29,699 nucleotides of DNA from a virus. Under the pieces are notes generated by a model. It was not told the DNA's origin. It searched no databases and saw only the letters and a program-made list of their open reading frames with translations. A program made the translations under genes and the position numbers. The stretch covers positions 1 to 29,699 of IMG/VR virus record IMGVR_UViG_3300021185_004118, one strand, 5' to 3'. Shown piece by piece: positions 2,839-26,000 of this stretch (position 1 is the stretch's first letter; the number at the start of each line of letters is the position of its first letter).

Positions 2839-4146
2839 TTATAATGTTACACTAATAGATGAATTACTTCCACCAATAGTTGTCCAACCTGACCTTAATC
2901 CAGATTGTATATTTCTAACTCTTGCATAATATGTTCCAGCTGTAACTGCTCCACCTGCAAGTTGTATGTTTGATGCATTCCAATTTGTTTCATTTATAAC
3001 AGGTGATGAAAAATCAGAATTATTATCTACTTGTACATCATATCCTGTAATACCACCAGAATCAGTATCAGGTGTTCCACCACTCCATGATAAGTTTGGA
3101 TGTGAGTATGATACACTTGTTGGTGCAGTTGGCCCATCAAAATCTGTATGTGAATTAGTTCCTTTGTTGTGAGTTATATATCCATTAGCTATATAGGTAT
3201 CTGTATTTGATACATCTAATGATACAATCTCTACATCTTCTTCAATAATTTCAATTGATGAAATAGAAACTTGTTCTACTTCACTACCATTACCTTTTAT
3301 TAAAATATCTCCTTCACTTAATAAGTGAGCTCTTTTAAATCTATAATCACTTCCATCTAATACTAAGAATGGATGTTCTGATGTACATTTTACATCTCCA
3401 TTATTTATATCATAATATTTACTTGCAAATGAGAAAACTACATTTTCAACTTCAACTTCTCTTTCAAATTGTCCAAGTTCACTTGTATTCCAATTCATAT
3501 ATTCAGCATCACCGAAATTACTTAACTCATTTAATGAATATCCTTGTAATTTCATTCCTTCTTCAGCTTCACCTATTTCTATTGATGTTCCATCTGCCAA
3601 TTTAATTGGTGTATCTGATGTTAAACATAATCCTGTTGTGTTACCATCGTAAGTATCTATTGAATAAACTGTTTTATCTTTATTTACACCATATCCATCA
3701 CTACTACCTATATGGTCATTATAACCATCAGCAAAATTACCTCTAATAGTATGTGTTACTGCTCCATCTAAAATTCCATCTGAGTTATCCATTGCAGATA
3801 CATCAAATGTTGCAGATAATCCACTATTAGTATTTATTGCTATTTTACTTCCAGCTGGTACTGACCAAGTTACATTTCCACTATAAGAACCATTTTTTGA
3901 TGCAAAGTTTGAACCTGCACCTGTTGTTCCTATTGTATATGTTTCTGTTGTTGATTCGATAGCATATGTAAATCCACTCATTGAATCAATGGAATCTACG
4001 GCGAATGTAGATAATCCTACATTATCACCTGATGATGGTGAGCCTCCTTTAATAGTACCTAGTGATACGTTTGCATCTTGTGTTACTCCATTAGCACCTG
4101 CTAAATCGTTTAATGAAAGGGTATCTCCTGAGCTTAGTGTTGGCAT
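2839..4146 (-). CDS. Virion-type protein with internal Hint (intein-like) domain and C-terminal FN3-like domain
   Basis: The 435-residue protein has three parts. Residues 1-173 are Ser/Gly/Thr-rich and start with SSGDTLSLNDLAGANG, resembling N-termini of phage minor structural proteins. Residues 174-327 form a Hint domain. It opens with Cys174 in the block-A motif CLTSDTPIKLADG and contains the block-B motif CTSEHPFLV. It ends with DTYIANGYITHN, whose His-Asn pair is the last two residues (326-327). Residues 328-435 are an FN3-like beta domain containing LSWSGG, a GYDVQVDN strand and a YYARVRN strand. Residue 328 is Lys, not Cys, Ser or Thr, so this is not a canonical intein. It fits bacterial intein-like (BIL) domains, some of which cleave or splice. 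No homing endonuclease fits into 154 residues. The start is supported by AGGAG at 4156-4160, overlapping the stop of the glycosyltransferase gene. It is probably a tail or baseplate accessory protein; the Hint call is strong. Confidence 0.85.
   Translation of the reverse strand: MPTLSSGDTLSLNDLAGANGVTQDANVSLGTIKGGSPSSGDNVGLSTFAVDSIDSMSGFTYAIESTTETYTIGTTGAGSNFASKNGSYSGNVTWSVPAGSKIAINTNSGLSATFDVSAMDNSDGILDGAVTHTIRGNFADGYNDHIGSSDGYGVNKDKTVYSIDTYDGNTTGLCLTSDTPIKLADGTSIEIGEAEEGMKLQGYSLNELSNFGDAEYMNWNTSELGQFEREVEVENVVFSFASKYYDINNGDVKCTSEHPFLVLDGSDYRFKRAHLLSEGDILIKGNGSEVEQVSISSIEIIEEDVEIVSLDVSNTDTYIANGYITHNKGTNSHTDFDGPTAPTSVSYSHPNLSWSGGTPDTDSGGITGYDVQVDNNSDFSSPVINETNWNASNIQLAGGAVTAGTYYARVRNIQSGLRSGWTTIGGSNSSISVTL
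3166..3627 (-). other. Hint/intein-like domain coding segment
   Basis: This segment encodes residues 174-327 of the FN3-like protein. The nucleophile candidate is Cys174 (codon 3625-3627). The block-B TSEH motif supplies the Thr and His that assist the N-terminal acyl shift in Hint proteins. The terminal His326-Asn327 pair (codons 3166-3171) would drive Asn cyclisation. The residue after Asn is Lys, so a standard trans-esterification to a +1 nucleophile is not available. N-terminal cleavage, C-terminal cleavage, or the alternative splicing described for A-type BIL domains are the possible outcomes. Confidence 0.85.
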
Positions 4147-4158
4147 AATTGTTTTCTC

Positions 4159-5154
4159 CTATATATTATAAATATCAAGTAATCTATTTACCCATAAATC
4201 TTTATCAGAAAAGTTTTTTTTCATATATTCTTTTATATGAGTAAACCATTTTATTTTTTCATCATATGAGGTAGTTACTAACTTAGTATAAATATGTTTA
4301 AATTCTTTTTTAGATGATGCACGATATGGATATTCTAAATCTTTACACCATGATGTATGTAATATTGGTAATTTACCATAATCAACCGCTTCAAATATAG
4401 AATATCCAAAAGGTTCACTAGTAAAGCAAGAATGAGAGATTCCCCAATCCATATTATAAAATGTATTTTTAAATTTAGAATTATAATGATATATTTTAGA
4501 TTTAGAGGTATCTAATTTAGTTCCTTGTTTCCAAACTATATTAAATTCTGTTGTGTTTGTAAATATATAAGATTTTAACCCATCTAAGTAATATGGATTC
4601 TTTCTTCCTTCACATCTTGCAGCGAAACCAAGTGTATTCGAATCATTTAATGGTAAATTTTGTTTAAACTCGTAAAAATTTGGTATATTTGTATTTTTAA
4701 ACAATATTTCATATAATCCAACCCATATTGAATTTTCTGACCAATCATTTACCTGTTTTTCCCAACTTGAATCCAAATAAGGATGCCAACTTAACATAAC
4801 ATCACTTCCCATTTGAGATTTTAATATATGGTCTACTGAATTATGTAAAACATTTGAATGTATTTTATCACTATTATCTATTATCGGTTTTGTTGGTGTA
4901 TAATGACCATGTAATATATTGATTCTTCGTGCTCCTTTACATAATTCTTCAAACTTTTCTATATTATCTCCATGCCAATGAGCTTCTATTGGAAAATCAT
5001 AATCTCCATATTCTTTTGGTTTTGTTCTATGAATTAAAAGAATTGGTTTTACATCTAACTTAGGTGCAACTAATTCCATCCATAGATTTACCCAAGTATC
5101 AGTACCAGCGTTTACCCAAGGGCCACCACCAGTTGTATAATACACATCATACAT
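4159..5154 (-). CDS. GT-B fold glycosyltransferase, probably GT4-like
   Basis: This 331-residue soluble protein probably transfers a sugar from an activated donor by a retaining mechanism. The C-terminal half carries the E-X7-E signature (Glu247 and Glu255 in EPFGYSIFEA) followed by GKLPILHTSW, the donor-binding region of GT4-type enzymes. A preceding GFAARCEGRKNPYYLDG segment (about 175-191) contains the Arg and Lys expected near the donor phosphates. The N-terminus (VYYTTGGGPWVNAGTDTW) resembles a Gly-rich acceptor-side loop. The start lies 3 bases after the stop of the upstream fibre gene and has no visible Shine-Dalgarno, suggesting translational coupling. Its stop overlaps the RBS of the Hint/FN3 gene. 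The position inside the fibre cluster suggests glycosylation of virion fibres or of host surface glycan. Donor and acceptor cannot be told from sequence. Confidence 0.8.
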   Translation of the reverse strand: MYDVYYTTGGGPWVNAGTDTWVNLWMELVAPKLDVKPILLIHRTKPKEYGDYDFPIEAHWHGDNIEKFEELCKGARRINILHGHYTPTKPIIDNSDKIHSNVLHNSVDHILKSQMGSDVMLSWHPYLDSSWEKQVNDWSENSIWVGLYEILFKNTNIPNFYEFKQNLPLNDSNTLGFAARCEGRKNPYYLDGLKSYIFTNTTEFNIVWKQGTKLDTSKSKIYHYNSKFKNTFYNMDWGISHSCFTSEPFGYSIFEAVDYGKLPILHTSWCKDLEYPYRASSKKEFKHIYTKLVTTSYDEKIKWFTHIKEYMKKNFSDKDLWVNRLLDIYNI

Positions 5155-6541: not shown

Positions 6542-6571
6542 AGTAAATTCTCTTATTTAAGAAAGTTTACT
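6542..6571 (-). terminator. Weak hairpin spanning the stop codon of the 1501-residue fibre gene
   Basis: Two 14-base arms (AGTAAACTTTCTTA and AAGAGAATTTACT with the adjoining T, on the minus strand) pair at 13 positions including one G-U, with a loop of 2 to 4 bases. The TAA stop of the 1501-residue gene (6557-6559) lies within it. A T5 run follows about 12 bases after the stem, which is far for an intrinsic terminator. An attenuator or mRNA 3'-end stabiliser is equally possible. Confidence 0.3.
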
Positions 6572-9500
6572 CTTTAATTCATCAATCTGTTTTTGTTGGT
6601 CTTTAACTGCTTCGATAAGTAATCCAGTAAGTTTAGCGTAATCTACACCCTTAAATCCATTATCTCTATCAGTTACCAACTGTGGTAGAACTTTCTCAAC
6701 ATCTTGTGCAATTACACCAACATTTGGTAATGATTGTTGTAACTCATCTGCATTATCATTCCAATTCCAAGTAACACCTTTAAGTGATTGTACTTTTTCA
6801 ATTGGATTAGAAATAAGTTCTATATTATCTTTTAATCTTTCATCCGAAGAAGCGTATGCTACAACATCTCCACCTACGTTTAATGCTCCACCTATACCTA
6901 CACCACCATCTACAATTAATGCTCCTTCAGTTTTACTTGTTGATGCAGTTGCATCATCTATTCTAAGTGTTCCGAATGTTACATCATCACCACTACCTAA
7001 TCCTAAATTACCAGCAGTTAGTGTTCTTGTTGAAACACTACCATTTGCATCAGTAACATGACCATCTCCGTTAGTTGTTATATTGAAATCTAAATCAGAT
7101 ATTACAGTTGCTCCTGTTAGAGCACCAGTATCAACAGAAATGTCATCTCCATCAAAAGTTGGGTGAGTATAATTAATTGTTCCTGCAGCATCTACACCTA
7201 AGTTAGTTCTTGCAGTTGATGCGTTTGCTAAATCAGATAAGTTACTTGATTTAGCTAATTTTGTTCCAACTGTTGTAGTTAAAGCAACTACATCACTATC
7301 TCCATTTGCAATACTTGCTGAAATTTCACCTAATGTATCTAATGTTGCTGGTGCAGTACCAATTAAAGCAGTAAGTTCTCCTTGTACATAAGCAGTTGTT
7401 GCAATTTTAGTTGAATTATCATCAGCTGAAGGAGTTGGTGCAACTGTTGTTCCAGTAAATGTAGGTGATGTGAACATCGTACTTTTACTTTCGTTTGTTA
7501 CATTTCCTAATCCTAAATCTGATGCAGTTAATGTTCTTGTTGAAACACTACCATTAGCATCTGTTACTAAACCACTTGTGTTTGTTGTAATATTAATATC
7601 TAAATCTGATATTACAGTTGCTCCTGTCAATGCAGTTGTATCAATATCTATATCATCACCCGCTAAATTAGTTGGTAATACATAATTGTTTGCCGATGCA
7701 GCAATACCATCTAATTTATTTTTTAAAGTAGTTGTAAAGTTGTTATCAGTTTGAGATGCAACTACAAAATCAATGTTACCATTAGTATCATCATATCCAA
7801 CACTAATTCCTGTTTCTGTTCCATCTAACATTCCACCTACGAAATCTTCAACTTGTTCTTGTGTTAGTTGTGTGTTTGTGTTTGTTGTATATGAAGGTGT
7901 ACCGAATGTACCATCATGTTTTAAGAATTCTCCACTTGAACCAGCTGCTGGTACTAAATTCCCATTACCTGTTCCTATTAAAGTTCTTGTTTCAGCTGCA
8001 GTTCTATTAACTTCAGCACCTGCTTCAATACCATCTAATTTAGAATGGTCATCAGTTGTAAAGTTTTCATCTGTTTGTGATGTAACTGAGAAATCTAATG
8101 AATTTCCAGTATCATCATAAGTAACACTAATACCACTTTCGGTATTACTACTTACCATTCCACCTACTATATCTTGAACTTGTTCTGTTGATAATTGTGT
8201 GTTATTTGTTGTAATTGAACCACCTAATGAAATAGCTGAACCATCTATTGTTATACTTGAATTTGATAATTGTGAATTTCCTATACTTGTTATTTGTGAA
8301 GAACCAGATACAACACCACCAATTAATTCAGCTGAAAGTGTATCACCACTTAAAATCATATTAACTTCTGTTGTATCAGAAACTGCTAAGTTTGTATGTG
8401 AAGAAATATCAACAGTACCTGCTGTTATTTCCTGTCCACTTAATGATATATAAGTGTTACCAGCTACAGTTACATCTGTTGAATTATCTGTTCCAGCAGC
8501 ATCTACTCCAAGTGCCGTTCTTGCAGCACCTGCTGAAGTTGCACCTGTACCACCACTTCCAACTGGTACTGTTCCACCAGTTATTTCTTGTCCACTTATT
8601 GATAAGTAATTTGTATTTCCTAATGTTACATCTGTTGAATTATCAGTTCCAGCAGCATCTACACCTAAGTTTGTTCTGGCAGTTCCTGCATTTGTTAAAT
8701 CTGATAAGTTACTTGCTTTTGCTAATTTTGTTCCAACAGTTGTTGTTAGTGATGCTAAACCTGATTGGTCTGATGCTAATGAAGCGGATAGTTCACCTAA
8801 AGTATCTAGTGTTGAACCAGCCGTACCTACTAAATCAGTAAGTTCTTGTTGTACATAAGCAGTTGTTGCAATTTTAGTTGAATCATCATTTGAACTTGGT
8901 GTTGGTGCCGCGGTTGTTCCAGTAAATGTAGGAGAAGTAAACATTGTTGATTTACTCTCATTTGTTACATTACCCAAACCTACATCACCTTTTGTAGTTC
9001 CTTGTGCTCTTAAACTTGCATATGTTCCACTTTGTGAGAAAGCAGCAACATCACTAATCTGTGATGAATCAATAGATACTTGTGCTGAACCTGATATTAC
9101 TCCACCAATTAGTTCTGCGGATAAAGTATCACCACTTAAAATCATATTAACTTCATCAGTATCACTTACTGCTAAGTTTGTATGTGAAGATATATCTACT
9201 GTTCCTGCAGTTATTTCTTGTCCACTTAATGATAAGAAATTACTACCAGCTAATGTTACATCTGTTGAATTATCAGTTCCAGCTGCATCAACTCCTATTG
9301 TAGTTCTAACTGCTCCTGCAGATGTATCATCTAATATTGTTTGTGCGAATGTTGAAGCAACTTGGTCTGAACCAGATACTACTCCATCACCTACGGTAAA
9401 TGTTACTGTTTCATCTGAACCTTGGTTAAGTGTTATTGCACCACCACCATCTAATCCTGCACCTGCACTAAATGTAATTGTATTATTATTAACACCACCT

Positions 9501-11062
9501 AATGCTTGTACTTGAGATGAACCAGATACAACTCCACTTGGTAATATTGTTTGTACATCACCTGTGGTTACAGTACCTATTGTTACTATTGAGTTATCAC
9601 CAGCATATGTTCCACCAGCAACAGTTGCCAATGTTGAATTAAATGCTTGTACATCTGAACCAATTGCAACTCCTAAGTTAGTTCTTGCAGTTGAAGCATT
9701 TGTTAAATCACTTAAGTTTTGGTCTTTTTGTAGTTTTCCACCTACTGTTGTTGTTAATGCAACTACATCACTATCCCCATTTGCAATACTTGCAGAAATT
9801 TCTAATAATGTATCAAATGCTGCAGGAGCACCACCTAATAAATCAGATACTTCTCTTTGTACATAAGCAGTTGTTGCTATTTTTGTTGAGTTATCGTTAT
9901 CAGCTTGTGTTGGTGCAGTTGGATTACCAGTTAATGCTGGTGAAGCTAAATCAGCTTTGGTATCAATTTCTGTTTGTTGAGCAGTTGATACTGGTTTGTT
10001 AGCATCAGAAGTATTATCTACATTTCCTAATCCTAAATCACTTGGTGTTAAATCTCTTGTTGAAATACTACCATTTGCATCTGTTACTAATCCACTTGTA
10101 TTTGTTGTTATGTTAAGGTCTAAATCTGATATTACAGTTGCTCCACTTAATGCAGTTGTATCAATATCTATATCATCACCAGCTAAGTTAGTTGGTAATG
10201 AATAATTGTTTGCCGATGCAGCAATTCCATCTAATTTAGTTTTATCTCCATCTGCAAAAGCTCCTTCTGATGGTTTAACTTGTAGTGTTGAGATTGTTAC
10301 ACCCTTAACACCAGCTAAATCAGTTAATTCTGAATCCATCAATGCTCCTGCTGCAGTTACATTACTTGTATCTGTTACATCTGCACTTGCCTCTATACCA
10401 TCTAATTTAGAATGGTCGGCAGTTGTAAAGTTTTCATCTGTTTGTGATGGGAATGTAACAACAAAATCCATATTTCCATTAGCATCATCATAAGTTACTG
10501 CGATACCTGTCTTAGTACCACCAGTTGCAACAAGTGCTCCTGCTATATCTTGAACTGCTTCTGTTGATAATTGTGTGTTTGTAGTAGTTACTGAACCACC
10601 AAGTGAGATAACTGAACCATCTATTGTTATACTTGAGTTTGCTAATTTACTATTTGCTATTGATGCTAATGTAGATGCTCCCCCAGCTGCAATACTAATA
10701 TCTCCACTTACATTTGCAAATATAGAATCTTCTATATTTGTGAAACTTACTTTCTTTTCAGTTCCTGCATCACTAATAAGGAAATTATCTGATTGTGCAA
10801 TTGAAGCTCCTCCTAATGCATCAAGAATATCAATATTAAAATCACTTGCGGCTACTCCTGTTAAGTTAGAACCATCTCCAACAAATGAACCTGTAAATGA
10901 ACCAGAATAATTAACAGCTGGTTGTATTCCTTGGTCAACTCCACTTGAGTTTAAGGTTATGGTTTCAAGAGTACCATTCTGTACTTGTAAGGTTATTAAG
11001 TTACCATTCTCATCCGATGGGAATTGTAATGAACCTGAAATTTTGGGATTGTGTATTATCAT
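6557..11062 (-). CDS. Long tail fibre with repeated modules and C-terminal S74 intramolecular chaperone
   Basis: The 1501-residue protein is rich in Thr, Ser, Asn, Asp and Gly and has no Cys. Its N-terminus (MIIHNPKISGSLQFPSDENG) differs from that of its neighbours and is followed by GSFTGSFVGDGSNLTGV. The shaft contains three copies of a roughly 75-residue unit that starts STKIATTAYVQ and ends NLSDLxNAxTARTNLGV, a pattern of trimeric phage fibres. Other repeated units are TQLSTE/QVQD-type, ENFTTxDHSKLDGI and ASDLGLGNV. The C-terminus (about 1403-1501) is a Peptidase_S74/endosialidase chaperone with SSDERLKDNI (Asp1407), VIAQDVEKVLPQLV, GVDYAKLTGLLIEAVK and a final coiled coil. Such domains trimerise the fibre and often cleave themselves off near the SDERLK motif. 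The start has AAGGAAAC about 7-14 bases upstream. Function as a trimeric fibre is well supported; the receptor is unknown. Confidence 0.92.
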   Translation of the reverse strand: MIIHNPKISGSLQFPSDENGNLITLQVQNGTLETITLNSSGVDQGIQPAVNYSGSFTGSFVGDGSNLTGVAASDFNIDILDALGGASIAQSDNFLISDAGTEKKVSFTNIEDSIFANVSGDISIAAGGASTLASIANSKLANSSITIDGSVISLGGSVTTTNTQLSTEAVQDIAGALVATGGTKTGIAVTYDDANGNMDFVVTFPSQTDENFTTADHSKLDGIEASADVTDTSNVTAAGALMDSELTDLAGVKGVTISTLQVKPSEGAFADGDKTKLDGIAASANNYSLPTNLAGDDIDIDTTALSGATVISDLDLNITTNTSGLVTDANGSISTRDLTPSDLGLGNVDNTSDANKPVSTAQQTEIDTKADLASPALTGNPTAPTQADNDNSTKIATTAYVQREVSDLLGGAPAAFDTLLEISASIANGDSDVVALTTTVGGKLQKDQNLSDLTNASTARTNLGVAIGSDVQAFNSTLATVAGGTYAGDNSIVTIGTVTTGDVQTILPSGVVSGSSQVQALGGVNNNTITFSAGAGLDGGGAITLNQGSDETVTFTVGDGVVSGSDQVASTFAQTILDDTSAGAVRTTIGVDAAGTDNSTDVTLAGSNFLSLSGQEITAGTVDISSHTNLAVSDTDEVNMILSGDTLSAELIGGVISGSAQVSIDSSQISDVAAFSQSGTYASLRAQGTTKGDVGLGNVTNESKSTMFTSPTFTGTTAAPTPSSNDDSTKIATTAYVQQELTDLVGTAGSTLDTLGELSASLASDQSGLASLTTTVGTKLAKASNLSDLTNAGTARTNLGVDAAGTDNSTDVTLGNTNYLSISGQEITGGTVPVGSGGTGATSAGAARTALGVDAAGTDNSTDVTVAGNTYISLSGQEITAGTVDISSHTNLAVSDTTEVNMILSGDTLSAELIGGVVSGSSQITSIGNSQLSNSSITIDGSAISLGGSITTNNTQLSTEQVQDIVGGMVSSNTESGISVTYDDTGNSLDFSVTSQTDENFTTDDHSKLDGIEAGAEVNRTAAETRTLIGTGNGNLVPAAGSSGEFLKHDGTFGTPSYTTNTNTQLTQEQVEDFVGGMLDGTETGISVGYDDTNGNIDFVVASQTDNNFTTTLKNKLDGIAASANNYVLPTNLAGDDIDIDTTALTGATVISDLDINITTNTSGLVTDANGSVSTRTLTASDLGLGNVTNESKSTMFTSPTFTGTTVAPTPSADDNSTKIATTAYVQGELTALIGTAPATLDTLGEISASIANGDSDVVALTTTVGTKLAKSSNLSDLANASTARTNLGVDAAGTINYTHPTFDGDDISVDTGALTGATVISDLDFNITTNGDGHVTDANGSVSTRTLTAGNLGLGSGDDVTFGTLRIDDATASTSKTEGALIVDGGVGIGGALNVGGDVVAYASSDERLKDNIELISNPIEKVQSLKGVTWNWNDNADELQQSLPNVGVIAQDVEKVLPQLVTDRDNGFKGVDYAKLTGLLIEAVKDQQKQIDELKSKLS
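6560..6859 (-). other. S74 intramolecular chaperone domain coding segment
   Basis: This covers residues about 1402-1501 of the long fibre. Visible motifs are ASSDERLKDNI, WNWND, IAQDVEKVLPQLV and VDYAKLTGLLIEAVKDQQKQ. It is homologous to the domain at 11787-12083 in the 1494-residue fibre (YASSDERLKNNI, IAQEIEKVLPELV, VKYDKLVSLLIEGIKEL). Confidence 0.88.
7501..7710 (-). repeat. In-frame direct repeat within the 1501-residue fibre, copy A
   Basis: About 210 bases here closely match 10021-10230. The offset is 2520 bases, exactly 840 codons. Both copies encode NYxLPTNLAGDDIDIDT, TxISDLDxNITTNTSGLVTD and DLGLGNV. This indicates internal duplication within the gene. Confidence 0.75.
10021..10230 (-). 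repeat. In-frame direct repeat within the 1501-residue fibre, copy B
   Basis: This is the partner of 7501-7710. Long identical stretches include the region encoding ISDLDxNITTNTSGLVTDAN and the segment encoding DGIAASANNY. Scattered third-position changes show that the duplication is not brand new. Confidence 0.75.
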
Positions 11063-11783: not shown

Positions 11784-14700
11784 TTATTGATTTTTTTCTT
11801 TTAATTCTCTGATTTCACTTGAAAGTTCTTTTATTCCCTCTATTAGTAATGATACCAATTTATCATATTTTACAGCCTTATACCCATTTTCTTTAGTAGT
11901 TACCAATTCAGGTAATACTTTTTCTATTTCTTGAGCAATTACACCATAATCTTTACCTTTATAAATATCTTGTTTTTCTTCATTCCAACTAAAACTATTA
12001 CCAGAAATTGAATTTATTTTTTCTATTGGATTTTTAATCGGTTGAATATTATTTTTTAATCTTTCATCTGATGATGCGTAGGCAATAATATCATCAGTAG
12101 CTTGTATAGTACCAGTTACATGAATTCCATTATTTATATCGAATCGTGTTCCTGAATGATTCCAAGTAATCGATGCATTTGCATCACTACCTCTATCAAC
12201 TTCAATACCACCACCATTTGCAGCTGATGAGTTTGCTGAACCACTTGCAACTGTAATTAGTTTATCTTCAATTGATAATTCAGAAGTTGAAATTTCTGTT
12301 GCAGAACCTAATACTGTGAAATCACCACTTATAACAACATCACCCGAAGCGTTAATATCATTGAAAGTTACATCAGAATTTGTTTTTACATTTTGGTTAC
12401 TTCCTCCTAAGTATCCCCATTGTGTAGCTGATATTGTAGATGCTCCGATATTTGCAAGTTGAGTTACTTCCCCACTTGTTAAAGATACACCTTTTACTTT
12501 ATCTACTGTAGCGTTACTAGCATTACCACTAATATCACCACCCATTGGTACAGAACCACTAAATACTCCTTCTGCATCTAATTTAGTTTTTACTCTTGTA
12601 TCTGTATAGTAAAGATTTGATGAACCCTCTGATAAATCATCAGTATCAAATCCTGTTAATGATATTTGAGAAGAACCAGAAACTATTCCAGCTGGAATAT
12701 TTGATAAACCGGTATATGATACTTGAGATGAACCACTAATAACTGTTTCAGTATCTAATTTTTTCTTTATTCCTTCGTTAAAATGTAGAGAACCAGTATC
12801 TAAGAATATACTTCTATTAGTATCAATAGTACCACCACCATCTAAACCTTTACCACTTCCAACTGATATAGATGAGTGGTCAATATGTTCGTTTGCTACA
12901 AAACCAGTCGTATCATCGTGAGATATTTGAACAGATGATGAAATTACTCCCTCTGTATCTAATTTATCTTTTACTTTACTATCAGAATATTGATTTATAG
13001 AAGAATAATTTGTAGTTGAAGTTACATCTATTTGAGATGAACCACTAACCACACCACCTTTTAAGTTTGCTGATAAAGTATCACCACTTAAAATCATATC
13101 TATATTAGAAGTATCTGATACTCCTAAATTAGTATCAGTTGAAATATCAACACTTATTAAATATGAACCTGTTTCTGATGCAAGTTGGTCTATTCTTATA
13201 TCTTGAACACCTTGTTGATTATCATTAGAAGATGTATAATCATTTAAAGATGATATATTAGTTTGGTCATCATATGAACCAGTATTTGATTCTATATTAT
13301 TTAATCTTGATTGAACTAAACTTATATTTGTATCATTTGATGATGTATATGAATTTAGTGAATCTAAAATACCAACAACTTGTTCTGATGAAGATACTAA
13401 ACCATCTCCTAACTCATTACCATATCTTGAATCTAAATCTGAATAAAGTTGTGAAGAACCTGATACTATACCACTACCATTTGTGATAGCAGCAAGAGAA
13501 ATACTTCCACCAAGTGCAACATTTTGAGAAACAATAGTTATTTCATTATTTTGTATTTGTGTACCATTTATTTGTGATGAACCACTTACTACTCCATCAG
13601 GAAAATGTGATAAAAATGAACCACTAAGTACTGCATCAGTATCTAATTTTGTTTTTACTTTACTATCAGAGTATTGGTTTATAGAACCATAGTTTGTAGT
13701 TGCAGTTACATCTATTTGTGATGAACCACTTACTAACCCACTAGTTGATGCAGGAATTCTTGCATCTACTCCAGCAGTAAAGTGTATAGAACCAGTATCA
13801 ATTGCAATAACTACGTTACCTACATTACCATATGCACCACCCGATTCTGTTCCTTGTTGTGTGTGTACTATACCTGTTGCAGATGGAGATATTGTTGATG
13901 TAGAGTTTACAGCAGTTATATCACCAGCACCAGCTTCAATTAAAGCATCATTTACTGCTTTTGTTGTTGGTATTGAGTTAGGGTCATCTGCAATAGAAGC
14001 AGAAACATTAAAAAATGCAGAAGTTCCTAAAGTTCTTTTCTTTAATAATCCACTTACATCAAATAATGCATCATAATCAGTTCCACCCCCAGCTGCAACA
14101 CTTGAAAGTGTTAGTGTACTAAATGTTGGTGAATCATTTGTGTTTAATCCTAAATCTACATTTGTAGAAACACTATTAATACTAGCCGTTATTGAACCTT
14201 GATGGTTTGATGCAAATGAAGAACCACTTACAACACCTTCGGTATTTAATTTATTTTTTACATCTGAATCTGTATAATGAGATAAATCTGATATTTGAGA
14301 TTCAGTAATTGTTATTTGTGATGAACCTGATACTACTCCACCAATTAGTTCAGCGGATAAAGTATCTCCACTTAGTATCATGTTAACTTCTGATGTATCG
14401 GATACTGCTAAATTAGTATCATCTGATATATCAACAGTTGTTAAGTAAGAACCAGTTGATGTTTCTATATTATCTAATCTATCTTCTATTGAAGAAGTTG
14501 TAGATTCAATATTTGATATATCTGAATCATTTGATGATGTGTATGAATTTAGTGAATCTAATATTCCAATCACTTGAGATGAACCACTAATTACTGTTTC
14601 AGTATCTAATTTTGATTTTACTCTTGAATCTGTATAATAAAGATTACTACCTTCTGTTAAATTAGCCGTTGTAGCAGTTCCTAAATAAGAACCACTATGT

Positions 14701-16268
14701 ATATTATCATTATCTAATTTTGATTTTACTCTTGTATCGGTATAGTAAAGATTACTAGCTTCAGTTACTTGGTCGGTATCAATACCTGTTAGTTCCCCAC
14801 CTTCTCCTTTGAATCCTACTGATGAACTTACTTTAGCATCAAATACGAATTGAGATGTATTGTGGTCCCATTGTAATGATTTATTAGCACCATCAATTTC
14901 TAATCCTGCTCCATCTGCAGCTGCTGAATCAGCAGAACCACTTGCAACTGTAATTAATTTATCTTCTATTCTTAATTCTGTTGAAGATATTTCTGTTGAA
15001 GAACCTAAAACTGTTAAATCACCAGTAATTGTCATATTACCAGTAAATGAACCTGTGTTAAATGTTACATCTGATGTTGTTGATAAATCTTGATTGATTG
15101 TATCTAAGTTTGCTTTATTTGAATGTGAGTGAGATACATCACTTAATAAATCTAATCTACTTTCAAACGATGAAGTTGTAGAATGAATATTTGAAATGTT
15201 TATATCAATAGAAGATGTAAATGTTTCTACATTATCTAATCTTACATCTTGTAAAGCTTGTTCAGTTGTTATAGAACCAGTTTCAGTTGAAAGTTGGTCT
15301 AATCTCGTATCTTGTGCAGCTTGTTCAGTTTCAATAGAACCTGTTTCGGTTGATAATTGGTTTAATCTTACATCTTGTGCAGATTGTTCGGTTGATATAG
15401 AACCAGTTTCAGTTGAAAGTTGGTCTAATCTTACATCTTGTGCAGCCTGTTCTGTTGATATAGAACCAGTTTCAGTTGAAAGTTGGTTTAACCTCACATC
15501 TTGTGCAGATTGTTCAGTAGCAATAGAACCAGTTTCAGTTGAAAGTTGGTTTAATCTATCTTCAAATGATGAAGTTGTAGAATGAATATTAGTAATATTA
15601 ATATCATTTGAAGCAGTATATGAATTTAGTGAAGTGTTTAATACTTCATCATCTAAATATGTTTTATCTATTATAGTACCTTGCCAAGTACCTGTTGCAA
15701 TTGTACCAACAGTAGTAATTGAACTAGCACCTGTAAATCCTGTCTTATCGGCTGATTCTAGTACTACTTGTGATGAACCACTAAATACACCATCTCCACC
15801 TACTTGTAAAAATCCTAAATCATCTATTTGTTGTGATGAAGAAACAATACCACTACCATTTAAAGTAATATTATCAATTGATGCAGAAGTTGCATATATG
15901 TGTCTCCATTTTTTTGAGTTTGAACCTAAATCAAAGGTATCATCTGTATCAGGAATAATAGAAGAACTAAGGTCTGCGGATATTACTATATTATCAGTAT
16001 CTTGGTTTCCTAAAAATAAATTACCACCTATTGTTAAATCACCTGTAGCAGTTATGTTAGTTGCTAAAATATTAGAACCAGTTATATTACCTGAAATATT
16101 TAATGAACCGCTATTTGATTCATCTAGTTTTGCTAGAATCTTATATTGAGTATTAGAACCACTACCATCACCAACTACAACAGTCTCTATGTCTTTATCA
16201 TAGAATAATTCTGATTGTTGTATTGAGCCTGATGGAGTTCCTCTTCGTAGTTTTAAAGTTGCTGCCAT
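11784..16268 (-). CDS. Long tail fibre with coiled-coil repeats and C-terminal S74 chaperone
   Basis: The 1494-residue protein begins MAATLKLRRGTPSGSIQQSE, with VVVGDGSGSNTQYKIL soon after, typical of phage fibre N-terminal domains. Residues about 238-342 are five 21-residue repeats (RLNQLSTETGSIxTEQxAQD type), a probable trimeric coiled-coil shaft. Further on are two modules of GDLTVLGSSTEISSTELxIEDKL type, several NLYYTDxRVKxKLD modules, two NLAVSDT/NLGVSDT modules and many SGSSQI repeats. The C-terminus (about 1396-1494) is an S74 chaperone with YASSDERLKNNI (Asp1401), VIAQEIEKVLPELV and a terminal coiled coil. It probably trimerises and may self-cleave. The start has AGGAAG about 10 bases upstream and a terminator lies further upstream, so the gene may have its own promoter in the 16269-16365 gap. 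The fibre call is secure; the exact position on the virion is unknown. Confidence 0.92.
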   Translation of the reverse strand: MAATLKLRRGTPSGSIQQSELFYDKDIETVVVGDGSGSNTQYKILAKLDESNSGSLNISGNITGSNILATNITATGDLTIGGNLFLGNQDTDNIVISADLSSSIIPDTDDTFDLGSNSKKWRHIYATSASIDNITLNGSGIVSSSQQIDDLGFLQVGGDGVFSGSSQVVLESADKTGFTGASSITTVGTIATGTWQGTIIDKTYLDDEVLNTSLNSYTASNDINITNIHSTTSSFEDRLNQLSTETGSIATEQSAQDVRLNQLSTETGSISTEQAAQDVRLDQLSTETGSISTEQSAQDVRLNQLSTETGSIETEQAAQDTRLDQLSTETGSITTEQALQDVRLDNVETFTSSIDINISNIHSTTSSFESRLDLLSDVSHSHSNKANLDTINQDLSTTSDVTFNTGSFTGNMTITGDLTVLGSSTEISSTELRIEDKLITVASGSADSAAADGAGLEIDGANKSLQWDHNTSQFVFDAKVSSSVGFKGEGGELTGIDTDQVTEASNLYYTDTRVKSKLDNDNIHSGSYLGTATTANLTEGSNLYYTDSRVKSKLDTETVISGSSQVIGILDSLNSYTSSNDSDISNIESTTSSIEDRLDNIETSTGSYLTTVDISDDTNLAVSDTSEVNMILSGDTLSAELIGGVVSGSSQITITESQISDLSHYTDSDVKNKLNTEGVVSGSSFASNHQGSITASINSVSTNVDLGLNTNDSPTFSTLTLSSVAAGGGTDYDALFDVSGLLKKRTLGTSAFFNVSASIADDPNSIPTTKAVNDALIEAGAGDITAVNSTSTISPSATGIVHTQQGTESGGAYGNVGNVVIAIDTGSIHFTAGVDARIPASTSGLVSGSSQIDVTATTNYGSINQYSDSKVKTKLDTDAVLSGSFLSHFPDGVVSGSSQINGTQIQNNEITIVSQNVALGGSISLAAITNGSGIVSGSSQLYSDLDSRYGNELGDGLVSSSEQVVGILDSLNSYTSSNDTNISLVQSRLNNIESNTGSYDDQTNISSLNDYTSSNDNQQGVQDIRIDQLASETGSYLISVDISTDTNLGVSDTSNIDMILSGDTLSANLKGGVVSGSSQIDVTSTTNYSSINQYSDSKVKDKLDTEGVISSSVQISHDDTTGFVANEHIDHSSISVGSGKGLDGGGTIDTNRSIFLDTGSLHFNEGIKKKLDTETVISGSSQVSYTGLSNIPAGIVSGSSQISLTGFDTDDLSEGSSNLYYTDTRVKTKLDAEGVFSGSVPMGGDISGNASNATVDKVKGVSLTSGEVTQLANIGASTISATQWGYLGGSNQNVKTNSDVTFNDINASGDVVISGDFTVLGSATEISTSELSIEDKLITVASGSANSSAANGGGIEVDRGSDANASITWNHSGTRFDINNGIHVTGTIQATDDIIAYASSDERLKNNIQPIKNPIEKINSISGNSFSWNEEKQDIYKGKDYGVIAQEIEKVLPELVTTKENGYKAVKYDKLVSLLIEGIKELSSEIRELKEKNQ
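11787..12083 (-). other. S74 intramolecular chaperone domain coding segment
   Basis: This covers residues about 1396-1494 of the 1494-residue fibre. Motifs are YASSDERLKNNI, NSFSWNEEKQDIY, YGVIAQEIEKVLPELV and AVKYDKLVSLLIEGIKEL, followed by a short helical tail. It is the second such domain in the window. Confidence 0.88.
15243..15557 (-). repeat. Five 63-base tandem repeats encoding 21-residue coiled-coil units
   Basis: Five in-frame copies of exactly 63 bases encode RL(N/D)QLSTETGSIxTEQxxQDx. Copies differ mainly by N/D at position 3 and by A, S, E or T before TEQ. The repeat register (RLNQL, then IxTEQ) fits a coiled coil broken by a TETGS turn. Unit number could change by slippage or recombination, altering shaft length. 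Confidence 0.9.
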
Positions 16269-20041: not shown

Positions 20042-23000
20042 TTAAAAATTACCTATCGAACCACTACTTGGTATTACTTTAACTCTCATATTTGTTGCAG
20101 TACTATTTATTGCAGCACCTAATACGTGCCACTTATCAAACCCACCTTGTGTTCCATCAACATCAAGTGTGTGAATTACTGATGGAGATGGACCTAAAGG
20201 TGCAGATGTTCCATCAGCATAGTGAACTAAACAATATTCTCCCACAGTACTTCCTCCAAATCCATCTGTCATTGAAGTTGGTACATTTATCATACTTGAA
20301 CCACTTGGTATTACAAATACTGTTTGTACCGCACTTCCCCAACTCATGTTTCCTGCAGATGCAGAAATAATTTCTGCAAAATCTGAACCACTTATCGTTG
20401 CCGCAAGTGTCATAGTTTTACCACCAGCAAGTGAATATGAACTATCACCTACCGATGTTTTAATTTTGTAATACGGTGATGCAGTATTTGCTGTATAAGC
20501 AGTTACTTCAGGTGGAGTATCACTATTTAAGGTACTCGCACCCATCACCGAGTTATACGCACTCGAATAATTACCATCCGAAGCGTAGTTCGAATAATAA
20601 ATATATACTTTACCAGTATTTGCTGATTGGTCAACTGTTATTGTTTCATTTGATAGTGTTACTGATTCTGAGTAAGTATCTGTTACTACTATGTTGATTG
20701 AGTACGTTCCTGCCTCTAAAGAACCAGTTGGTTGTATCTCAAATGGTGATGTTGAACCACTTACATCAAATTTACCACCATCAGTACCCGCGAGGGTAAC
20801 TGTAAATGGTGAATTACTTTCTACATCAGTTACTACCAATGTACCTGCATCTGAATCAGCAACTGCATTATCACTTTCGTAGTTTGATGATGATGTAAAC
20901 GAAGCAACCGGTGATTGGTTACCAAATACATTCAAGGTAACTGAACCACTACCAACATTTCCATATTGGTCATCAAATGTTATTGTTGTACTTACTGTAT
21001 CTCCACTTTGTGTTAATGAACCACTCAAATCTACTGCTAAAGTTAATCCACCAGTATCATTTATTGCAATTGCCGCATTTGATGATGTGAATGATTGTAC
21101 TATTGGTGAACCAAATGATGGTGAGTAAGATACATCAACATCTCCAGCGTTTCCATTTTCAAATCCAGTCGCATCTCTTAATACCGAACCACTTAATGCA
21201 GATTCTATTGCATAAACTGCAGTATCACCACTCATTGTACCTGCATCTGCTTGTGTTATTACTAACGAACCACTTACAACTCGTGTATTAAATCCATGTT
21301 CATCTTTTAATGTTACTTCCCAAGGGTAAGTTCCACTTGGTACTGAAGTATTATTTACATTTAATCTCATATTTGGAGTTGAAACCGATGGTGTGAAATA
21401 AGTTGAGTTGTAACTTGACCAAGTTAAACCAGCATTTGGCATTGAATCACTTTCAGTATCAGATATTGTTAATTCTAATACTTCAACTGAACCAGTTGCT
21501 TGGTTTGTATTTTCAAATTGAGTTGAAAGTGAACTTGTAGTTGGTGCATTGTTTGTAGTTACATTAACTGATATAGAACCACTACCTACATTACCATGTT
21601 GGTCTGCCCAAGTTATATTAGAGGTGATTGAATCTCCACTTGTTTCACTACTTCCACTTATATTTGTTCCTACTGATAAATTACCACTTGCATTTACAGA
21701 AACAAATGCATTTGATGAAGTAAACTCTTGTACAACTTGTGAACCATAGTTAGGTGAATAAGAAACTCCTAAATCTCCTTGTGTTCCTGTTCTACCATTT
21801 GAGTTTGTTACGATATTGTTACCATTTACAGCTGATTCTATAACATAGAACGTACCATTTGTTGAAAGAGTACCTAAATCAGCCTCTGCGATTGTTATTT
21901 CTCTTTCATATTGTGATGTTTCACCAAATTGGTCAAAGATTGAAGCAGTATATGAATAAGTTCCACCATCAAAATCAGATGCCGCAGTTAACTGAACTGA
22001 AGAAGTGTTTGAATTTTGTGGTTCTATGTTAAATTTACCTGCATCTGTTCCACTTAAACTCATACTGAATGGAGTATCTGATTCTTCATCTGTAATTGTT
22101 AGTGAAACCATTAATGCACTTGATGTTGCTTGGTTTGTATTGTAAACTCCACTATTATTAGTGAACGAAGCACTTGGATGTGAGTTTCCAAATACATTTA
22201 CTGTTAAACTACCACTACCAACATTACCATAGTTATCTTGGAATGTAATATCAGATGAAATTGTATCACCTGAACTTGTAAGTGAACCGCTTATATCAAC
22301 TGCAAGGGTAAGATTACCACTTGAATCAATATCTATCGATGGATTTGATGAAGTAAATGATTGAACACTCGGAGTTCCATCTGAACCAGAGTATGAAACA
22401 GTTAATTGAGAGGTATTACCACCTTCAAAGCCAGTTGCATCTCTCAATGAATCATTATTTCTTGCTGATTCTATAATATGAGAGGTTGTATCTCCACCAA
22501 GTGTACCAGTATCGGTTTGATTGATTGAAATCGTGTTACCTATGTAATCTGAAACTTCACTATAAGAATCAGATACTCTTAGGTTATAAGTTATGGTCCC
22601 TGCAGATAAATTCTCATTTGCTCTAATGTATAAAGAAGATGAATTTGAGTTTGTATAATTGAGATTGAGTTTCCCCGCATCAGTACCAGATAAAGAAGCA
22701 GAATAAGGAGTATCACCTTCAGTGTCAGTTATCGAAACAAGAACCAAGTTTGTATTTGTTGTTGCTAAATTTGTATTTAGATTAGAATTTTGTAATGTGA
22801 ACGATGCACTTGGGTGATGGTTGTGTACTATATCTACATTTAAGTTATCAGTCGTTATTGTACCGAAAGTATTAGTAAATGTAATTACAGAATCCAATGA
22901 ATCATCACTTTGTGTTACAGAACCACTTAAATCAACTCCTAATGATAAATTACCACTGCCATTTATTACAATTGCTGGATTTGATGATGTAAATGTTCCA

Positions 23001-26000
23001 CTTTGATTTGAATTATAATCTGCAGTACTAGAACCATAGTTTGTTGTTTTTATAGTTGTACCATTTTCTTCAGATTCTTTAATATACGGTCCTGCTGACC
23101 AGTTATCAGAAATAATTGCTGGTGTATCATCAGTAATTGGTATTGTGATGATTGCAGGGTTAGATGATTCGTTATATGAATCTTTAACTTGAACTGTATA
23201 TTGATATTCGTTTATTAAATCGGAATTTAAGAAAACTCCTACTTTTCTCGTTACTACTCCACTTGAACTCATTTGGAATGGGTTCTCATGTGGGTCTGTT
23301 AATTGAGAAGTACCACCATACGAACCACTTGATACATTTACATTATCTAATTCTAACTTATATAAAGTAAAGTTAGCAAATGTTATAGTATCTCCTTCAT
23401 TATCTGCTGCAGATATTGTTCCAACAGTTGTTCCATCTGATGAATTCTCATTTATAGATGATAGTGATTGATTTGAAATAGTTGGTACTAAGTTATCAGT
23501 TACATTTACAGTAATTGGTAAAACAACTATTGAATCAGAATCTTGTCCTAACTCATAGTGTTCATCTGATGCAGATATACTGAAATTATATGTTGTTTGT
23601 TCTTCATAATTTAAAGAACCAGTATTTTGTAAGATATCAACATACGTTGATGATTTTATTACTTCAAAATGATTACCATCTATTGAAGATGAGTGTATTG
23701 TTATTGAATCTCCATTTGCATCTGTAAAGAATACTCTTTTTAATAAAGTATTATCAGCTGAACTTTCATTTAAGTTTGAAGTTACCGATGTAATTACATT
23801 TCCACTAGTAGAAGTTTCTCTAAATACAGGTGTTGAGTTTGGTGTTACAAATATTGTAATATCTTTTTCAATTGATGAGTTAAATGTATCAGTTGTTTTT
23901 GCAATAAACGTATGTCCATGTGAACCACCTACTAAATCAGTATTAAATGATGCAGATGTTGGTACTGCATTTAAGGTTACAATACCATTGGATGCAACTC
24001 TAACTAAATCATCAGTATATGTTGAACCTGTGCCAAATGTTAATGCCTGTCCTTCAGGGTCTGTTGCTTCTAAAGTAAATATTGGTGAACCACTTGAACT
24101 ATATTCAGATATAGTTTGATTACCACTTGTTATAGCAGGGTCTGAGTTTGGATAAAATACTGCGTTTAAGAAATCTACTACTGAACCACTTGTACCTGGA
24201 TTAAACGATGATGAAAACATCGTTGGTAGTTTTTCTTGTGATACAATTCTATTTCCATCAAAATCAGTATCTCCACCACCACCAGAACCACTTAACGCAT
24301 ACCTTGTATCATAAGAAGATGTTAATTGTGATGAACCACTTATTGTACCAGCTGGTATTTCAGTTAAATAAGATGATGTAAACGAACTTAAACCATCTAC
24401 TTCTGTTTGAATTGAAGAAGTGAATACGTTTAATGAACTTATATCAGTTTTAGAACCACTTAAAACACCTGTTCCGCCTAAAGTTCTAAGAACAGAACCA
24501 GAAACCAATCCATCAGGAAGTTCTGTTAGGTAAGATGATGTTTGAGCAGATATAGCATTTACTTCTGTTTGTATTGATGAAGTAAATGTATTTAACGAGT
24601 CAATTACAGTATGTGATGAGGATATAAATCCTAAATCAGTAATTTGTTGTGAACCACTAATAATATTAGTAGGTATATTTGTTAAATCAGTATAATCAGA
24701 TACACCACTTGAACCACTTAAAGAATATCTTGTATCATAAGAAGAAGTTAATTGAGATGAACCACTAATTACACCACTTGGTAAAGTAGATGTAGTATCA
24801 AGTGAAATTACCCAATACCCATCATAGTAAACATAAAGATTACCATCGTCTGATTTCCACCATAAATCTCCTTGTGATGGAGAACTTGGTGCAGAATCTG
24901 AAACAGTTACACTTGAACTACCACCACTTGCAGAAGATGATATAATATAGTTACTACCATCTACATTTATTGTTATATTTTCACCTGCAACTAATGAACC
25001 ACTAAATACACCATCAGAATCTAATTTAGATTTTATACTTGTATCTATTGATGATGTGAATGTTTCAAGAGCAGTTAACCTTTGTCTACTTGAAGTATAA
25101 TGGTTTGCAAATGCAGTATCGTTTTCTGTATCAGTTGAGTTAACTAAATTAACAATTTCTACGAATTGGTCATAATCTGCATTAGCACCACTTAGTATAT
25201 TATCTATTCTACCCTTTTCAGTTAATATCTGAGTATCAAATGATGCAGAATCAGTATAATAAGAAGATGTAAATGTATTTAAGTGTGTTATATTTGTTAA
25301 ATCATCATATGAACCTGTATTTGATTCAATTTCACTAACTCTTTGTTCTAAAGAAGAAGTTATTGAATCTATACCACTTAATCGTGTATCGGTTGATGAT
25401 GTATAATCATTTAATGAACTTATATCTGTATGAGAACCACTAAGTAATCCTTTACCACCAGTTAGAACATCATAATCTACTTGAGATGAACCACTTACTA
25501 ATCCACTTGGAACATTTGTAAGTTGAGTATAATCTGTTGTACCACTACTACCACTTGGTATTGTTATTGTATTACCACTTGATATTGTAAGTTGGTCTCC
25601 ACTTATAGAAAGTGTTTGAGAATCAGTTTCACTTGTTAAATACGATGATGTTGCTGCAGATAATGCATCTACTTCGGTTTGTATTGATGAAGTAAACGTA
25701 TTTAAATGAGTTACATCTGTATGTGATGAAGAAATGAATCCTAAATCACTTATTTGTTGTGAACCACTAATTGTTCCTGCTGGTGTATTATCACCACTAC
25801 TTGTTACAAATCCTAATTCTGCTATTTGAGATGAACCACTTATGATTCCACTTGGGAATTGTTCTGATGAACTTATGATTCCTCTTCCAATAGTTTCATA
25901 AGAACCTGTTACATTTGATAATTGAGTTATTCTTGTATCTAATGAAGAAGTTGTTTGTTCTAAGTTAGATATTTTAATATCGTTTGAAGCAGTATAAGAG

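Follow-up and report, generated by a model that had tools for sequence, protein, structure and literature searches.

The open reading frame at positions 2839-4146 (minus strand) of the viral DNA analysed here, a stretch of 29,699 bases called the window throughout, raises the question of what a Hint domain with an intact-looking active site, and with a lysine in place of the Cys, Ser or Thr that follows a canonical intein, is doing inside a phage protein. The gene encodes 435 amino acids plus a stop and its homologues have similar boundaries. Its product is laid out as an N-domain, the Hint domain (Cys174 to Asn327), the pair Lys328-Gly329 and an FN3-like domain. The gene is followed downstream by a gene for 99 amino acids and then by a tail sheath gene, next but one, which was recognised by Pfam matches at 4e-12 and 5e-11 and whose best-covered matches were to Microcystis phage Mel-JY01 (48%) and the uncultured huge phage LR756508 (42%). 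Upstream lies a gene for 331 amino acids, beyond which are genes that we read as fibre-like. The position near the tail sheath gene suggests that the 435-residue product is a phage structural protein. Elsewhere in the window we observed two very long proteins with repeated segments (6557-11062 and 11784-16268), whose ends appear to resemble self-cleaving tail-fibre chaperone domains, and a 2227-residue protein (20042-26725) with many repeated Ig- or cadherin-like stretches recognised by eye. Promoter and terminator scans of the window gave no excess over shuffles.

All parts of the protein lie on the minus strand, which the sequence-only reading had left unstated while placing the key residues correctly. 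The N-domain covers residues 1-173 (3628-4146) and the Hint domain runs from Cys174 to Asn327 (3166-3627), exactly the 154 residues that had been estimated and too few for an endonuclease. Within it are Cys174 (3625-3627), the putative nucleophile of an N-S acyl shift; block B as T255-S-E-H258 (3373-3384); Asp316 in block F (3199-3201); and His326-Asn327 (3166-3171), the putative site of Asn cyclisation. Lys328 and Gly329 occupy the +1 and +2 positions (3160-3165) and the FN3-like C-terminal domain takes up about residues 337-435 (2842-3138).

The identity of the domain was examined by family profiles, a profile search of the PDB, Foldseek and VIA-align. Pfam Intein_splicing matched the window protein at E 3e-6 with 27.6 bits, below the curated 35.8, and NCBIfam intein_Nterm matched at E 9.4e-5 with 23.3 bits, just under the cut-off of 24.5 that the relative L016 exceeds with 25.8. 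PHROGs gave no match to the window protein at E 0.01. A profile of the Hint family searched against the PDB returned BUBL1 BIL2 of Tetrahymena thermophila first (3e-6) and the Clostridium thermocellum BIL second (3e-5). The full-length AlphaFold2 model, built on 17 aligned sequences, was mediocre (pLDDT 72.8, pTM 0.46), being weaker in the N-domain than in the Hint and FN3-like parts, and Foldseek matched it to inteins, BUBL1 BIL2 and the C. thermocellum BIL with E down to 1.2e-9. FN3- and Ig-repeat matches to the whole model, with rmsd of about 17-45 Å, were given no weight. For model residues ~170-330, the 50 matches listed by VIA-align were inteins, BILs and hedgehog domains (Z 12.3-19.6). 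BUBL1 BIL2 was the best among the matches listed (Z 19.6, 1.7 Å over 137 residues, 26% identity), and the C. thermocellum BIL (Z 18.7, 1.6 Å over 132 residues), the DnaB intein 1mi8 (Z 18.4, 2.0 Å over 135 residues) and a hedgehog Hint (Z 17.7, 2.0 Å over 135 residues) followed, differences in Z below 1 being counted as ties. As the DnaB intein is nearly tied with the BILs, the fold alone does not separate a BIL from an intein; the comparison with BIL, intein and Hint families proposed by the sequence-only reading did give intein and BIL matches, with Pfam and NCBIfam scores under their cut-offs. The profile matches, the matches to solved BILs and the Hint-fold matches of the predicted structure together argue that the motif set is not a product of chance, and the AlphaFold2 model places the domain in the Hint superfamily.

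A-type BILs are defined by Cys1, a block-B TxxH and a C-terminal His-Asn in two papers (PMC4031507, PMC7765530), and the family of the window protein has all of these. It also has the non-Cys/Ser/Thr residue at +1 that marks this type, and lacks the Cys, Ser or Thr of a canonical intein. The setting of A-type BILs is in variable, non-conserved proteins; here the C-part is exchangeable and the N-domain is constant in the family.

To follow these residues beyond the window, relatives were collected by several scans. The whole protein gave 25 relatives; with the Hint alignment, 281 stretches of viral contigs matched, and the best 80 of these were kept; scans anchored on the upstream glycosyltransferase-like gene described below (best 80 of 444) and on the N-domain (best 80 of 146) were added, together with six named phage loci. 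The pooled loci held 160 unique Hint regions, reduced to 67 by de-replication at 80% identity, and the N-domain was recognised in 56 of the 67. Among these 56 relatives, Cys1 and the block-B His were present in every one, the block-B Thr in 55 with Ser in the remaining one, and Asp316 was conserved in 48, with His in 7 and one gap. The C-terminal end was readable in 54, as L237 is cut by the contig and L136 stops early, and all 54 carried His-Asn-Lys, 53 of them followed by Gly. The active site thus looks as intact as had been claimed, and the +1 residue is more than a missing Cys, Ser or Thr: since the lysine is invariant along with His-Asn in the family, it is a conserved feature and not a sign of decay. 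In the remaining 11 of the 67 regions, Lys+1 was found in three (two truncated family members and L107); of the other eight, one is a stand-alone ORF that has degenerated, and seven have a different +1 residue, namely V in 3, T in 2, G in one and A in one. Loss of the catalytic residues in homologues, which the sequence-only reading had named as grounds for abandoning its proposal, is not seen within the family, and it is the distant L107 (LR756508) that deviates. This relative lacks the N-domain and has its block-B Thr replaced by Ser and its block-B His by Gln while keeping HNK, so the N-terminal chemistry would not be universal.

Pairwise dN/dS of the Hint domain was 0.12-0.61 in 10 comparisons, which indicates purifying selection. 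The ratio stayed below 1 across all three protein parts and the Hint was not consistently lower than its flanks, with dS near 1 in the most distant pairs. The N-domain and the Hint also travel together, as 255 of 256 N-domain ORFs in a redundant set carry the Hint and the remaining one, L152, is truncated at the edge of its contig; the best 80 of 146 N-domain loci contained no Hint-free allele. Some copies depart from this picture: the Hint genes at L136 4990-5964, L154 5007-6652 and L185 1033-2205 have an early stop or frame change (assembly error or decay), and L015 (5707-6198) and L020 (3889-4380) each have, a few kb away from an active-looking gene, a stand-alone 163-residue Hint-like ORF that lacks both Cys1 and His-Asn. 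In 50,697 phage records, tblastn with the window protein gave only weak matches to the Hint part in 7 records (best E 2e-2), and with the relatives L026 and L016 it gave 16 and 63 phage records, some through the C-part alone. A species-genome collection of bacteria and archaea scanned with the Hint alignment yielded 82 pattern matches and no confirmed relative, which is not proof of absence.

What follows His-Asn differs widely among the 56 relatives. The tail measures 90-115 residues in 30 of them, 215-260 in 18, 130-150 in 2, 61 in 1 and 10 or fewer in 3, the last 2 having no readable HNK. In sampled members the 90-115-residue class is FN3-like, with Pfam fn3 above its cut-off in L016 (1.6e-7) and L194 (1.4e-7) and under it in L023 (2.6e-4), and the 215-260-residue class is Laminin_G_3 (5e-16 in L026, 8e-8 in L117). 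The C-terminal domain of the window copy gave no Pfam fn3 match of its own, so that its description as FN3-bearing holds through L016 and L194, along with the beta strands in the model. HNKG is kept by the short-tailed members too, among them L272, which came from a later scan and has 4 residues beyond HN. As HNK is kept ahead of FN3, LamG, another module or a few residues, Lys+1 outlasts every kind of C-part seen, and the joining of the N-domain to an FN3 domain, which had been suggested as the outcome of splicing, cannot be the general purpose of the Hint.

The sequence-only reading missed the glycosyltransferase-like gene directly upstream (4159-5154, minus strand). A model of its 331-residue product (pLDDT 88.2) matches GT-B glycosyltransferases over the whole length, the PDB matches being 6kih (Z 23.6) and MshA, TarM, HepE and BshA (Z about 21-22); no Pfam family scored above its cut-off and PDB sequence profiles gave nothing convincing. 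The sequence contains EPFGYSIFE, which we take to be an E-x7-E type motif of GT4-like glycosyltransferases, the second E being Q in some members. The modelled fold and the motif together point to a putative GT4-like glycosyltransferase with a predicted GT-B fold. The pairing of the two genes is strict. The Hint and N-domain scans yielded 90 unique Hint regions; upstream space was sufficient in 74, and in all 74 the glycosyltransferase stood directly upstream on the same strand. Starting from the glycosyltransferase, the Hint lay directly downstream of all 61 unique genes that left 1.5 kb of space (two others close to the end of a contig were set aside), and the two sets are not independent as contigs recur between them. 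Searched against the phage records at E 0.01, the glycosyltransferase had one match, LR756508 (L107), where the order is reversed with the Hint protein coming before the glycosyltransferase. There the Hint protein ends in HNKH and is 30% identical to that of the window over 159 residues, and the glycosyltransferase is 36% identical to its counterpart. No glycosyltransferase was found within the stretches fetched for the named records L102-L106. Glycosyltransferases are common in phages, and the pairing is therefore no proof of a shared reaction; it suggests that the enzyme probably decorates the Hint protein encoded next door.

Some of the glycosyltransferase loci also encode a second Hint protein (L108 912-1973, L109 2949-3995, L180 2826-3989, L270 2913-4061, L271 2868-4013, L272 1863-2927 and L275 1126-2232). 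These proteins have a Gly-rich stretch ahead of Cys1 and 4-5 residues beyond HN, with ends such as HNVHDK, HNVHAK, HNVHSK, HNVHGK and HNGKGE, and some sit before the glycosyltransferase. A scan with them gave 76 loci.

In these 76 loci, Lys+1 recurs in Hint proteins with other flanks. In L294 (2097-4001), L293, L281, L284 and L289, HNK followed by TAA ends the protein. Tandem-Hint phage proteins were found in L281 (2601-4364), L284 (2085-4862), L303 (3-4655) and L308 (3-7088); successive Hints are joined by HNK-C or HNKF-C in L303, L308 and L284, a lone Lys forming the HNK-C link in L303 and L308, and HNKG continues into further sequence in L297, L300 and L322. A single terminal lysine would leave splicing little to restore, which suggests that the lysine matters to the reaction itself. 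The rule has counter-examples, as HNA, HNR or HNL stand at junctions in L284, L281 and L305, and other Hint clusters carry A, L, G, I, C, S, T or V at +1. When the Hints were grouped into 20 clusters at 40% identity, Lys was the commonest +1 residue in 8, a count that is indicative only (the clusters were seeded from an HN-K family and share ancestry, and one takes in sites other than genuine ends). Five canonical phage inteins served as controls, along with a Hint protein that carries no annotation. Four of the five inteins could be read at +1 and had T, C, C and S (the last by eye); in the fifth, the Gordonia terminase intein (L349), the end was not identified. The unannotated Hint protein, from a Ruminococcus phage (L347), had A.

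We consider it probable (about 0.6) that the window protein is a virion component, of the tail or another surface structure, which processes itself by means of an A-type BIL-like Hint domain. The best reading of the sequence data is that this domain is predicted to cleave the phage protein and may re-ligate it, programmed cleavage or unusual ligation being the likely putative role of the Hint. Cys174, aided by the block-B His258, would form a thioester at the bond after residue 173, and Asn327, aided by His326, would cyclise and cut before Lys328, the conserved HN suggesting C-terminal cleavage. As the +1 residue is not Cys, Ser or Thr, the products would be mainly the cleaved N-domain, Hint and C-part, and a fraction might be re-joined through attack on the thioester by an amine of the Lys328 fragment. 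Lys+1 may take part in the cleavage or ligation chemistry or be required by it, and the glycosyltransferase would then decorate the same protein. This scheme agrees with descriptions of BILs: type A members with HN ends mostly cleave, and for their ligation it has been proposed that the C-fragment attacks the N-terminal thioester with its free amine (PMC4031507), and the products of BILs are mainly cleaved (PMC7664689). On ligation the sources disagree, which counts against the re-joining step: one review holds that A-type BILs cannot ligate their flanks (PMC7765530), and one BIL spliced only once its +1 Tyr had become Cys (PMC4031507).

The invariant lysine invites a stronger interpretation, in which the N-domain passes from the thioester at Cys174 to Lys328, onto either its side-chain amine or its freed backbone amine, to give an isopeptide-branched or Lys-capped product. 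Lysine at +1 in all readable N-domain relatives, its place as the last residue of five proteins and as the lone linker of two tandem arrays, and an isopeptide bond to K[epsilon-NH2] reported for the top structural match, BIL2 (PMC8616854), all lean this way; but the acceptor described there is a lysine of the neighbouring ubl5 domain and not the +1 residue, the HNA, HNR or HNL junctions break the pattern within the tandem proteins themselves, and the +1 residue is T, V, A or G in L102-L106 and in the second Hint proteins. The +1 lysine may also be kept for another reason, for example because it speeds Asn cyclisation, and we regard the amine-acceptor route as rather doubtful. Carried further, it would define a distinct phage class of HN-K Hints that move the N-domain from the Cys1 thioester onto the amine of Lys+1, making a branched or capped virion protein with no helper enzyme, which a dedicated glycosyltransferase then modifies, with the tandem HNK-C arrays and the HNK-ending proteins as further forms; such a class, suggested by sequence patterns, is offered only tentatively. 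The strict pairing with a GT-B/GT4-like gene could instead point to a transfer like that of Hedgehog, where the N-domain thioester would be attacked by an external acceptor, perhaps a sugar or glycan that the partner enzyme helps to make. The strong structural match to the hedgehog Hint is in keeping with this, as are the relatives with only 4-9 residues after HN, in which the C-part can evidently be dispensable. We know of no precedent for a sugar as a Hint acceptor, which counts against it, and no acceptor-binding region was identified in the protein. The conserved HN moreover points to C-terminal cleavage, whereas Hog domains are described as using only the first acyl shift (PMC7664689), and we judge this transfer unlikely.

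Two further rival accounts were considered. A degenerate or mobile intein that lost its +1 nucleophile by chance would explain why 1mi8 is nearly tied with the BILs in structure and why intein_Nterm and Intein_splicing are the best family matches. It is hard to reconcile with a lysine in all readable relatives against T, C, C and S in the control inteins (four read of five), with the lack of a Hint-free allele in the best 80 of 146 N-domain loci or with the exchangeable C-flank, and 154 residues leave an endonuclease no room; we consider it highly improbable. That the Hint is catalytically dead and kept only as a structural module gains something from L107, which has lost the block-B His, and from the stand-alone ORFs of L015 and L020. 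Within the family of the window protein, however, Cys1 and the block-B His in 56/56 and HN in 54/54 readable copies make a dead module a poor prospect, about as unlikely as the Hedgehog-like transfer, and self-processing by an A-type BIL-like Hint remains the reading that we prefer.

Hint and BIL chemistry is already known, and entries of similar fold from uncultured Caudovirales phages are present in databases as 'Hint domain containing protein' and 'Fibronectin type III'. As similar sequences are thus already held under generic names, it is the interpretation that looks undescribed and not the existence of the sequences. Among open-licence PMC articles, searched by title and start of abstract, none dealt with an HN-K phage Hint, an exchangeable C-part or a Hint-glycosyltransferase pair. 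The conserved putative cutting residues and Lys+1, next to a glycosyltransferase-like gene, hint at a maturation route for a phage protein that has not been described before. If active, the Hint would let members of this family, which has 281 matching stretches of viral contigs, mature by autocatalysis and would add to virion assembly a covalent tailoring that needs no other enzyme. With its conserved Lys+1, an active domain would also make the choice between cleavage and ligation directly testable in Hints that lack a standard +1 nucleophile, and might be developed into lysine-directed tools for joining proteins.

Compared with known systems, the window protein shares its Hint chemistry with the canonical phage inteins of terminase, helicase and ribonucleotide reductase, which differ in having C, S or T at +1 (four read of five) and housekeeping hosts. 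The jumbo phages of Erwinia, Dickeya and Yersinia (L102, L104-L106) also have a virion structural protein, by its annotation, with a Hint close to the C-terminus; they differ by a collagen-like N-part, a 10-residue tail, T or V at +1 and no glycosyltransferase in the fetched stretch. These virion proteins may belong to PHROG 38766, which the relative L026 matches at 5.7e-7. The 'large intein domain protein' of phage NCTB (L103) is another phage protein whose Hint lies close to the C-terminus, and differs by Ala at +1, another N-part and no glycosyltransferase in the fetched stretch. The closest solved structure is BUBL1 BIL2 (PDB 6y75, 6tmm), which like the Hint of the window sits between two other domains and for which Lys isopeptide chemistry is reported (PMC8616854). 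BIL2 has, on that account, ciliate ubiquitin-like flanks and an acceptor lysine in the next domain, whereas the window protein is a phage protein whose conserved Lys is the +1 residue itself and whose partner is a glycosyltransferase. With the C. thermocellum A-type BIL (PDB 2lwy) the window protein shares the Hint fold, the HN end and a +1 residue other than Cys, Ser or Thr. We know of no A-type BIL family with an invariant Lys+1, and none appeared in open-licence PMC by title and start of abstract. It is the invariant Lys+1, the phage setting and the strict gene pairing that set the family of the window protein apart from the A-type BILs.
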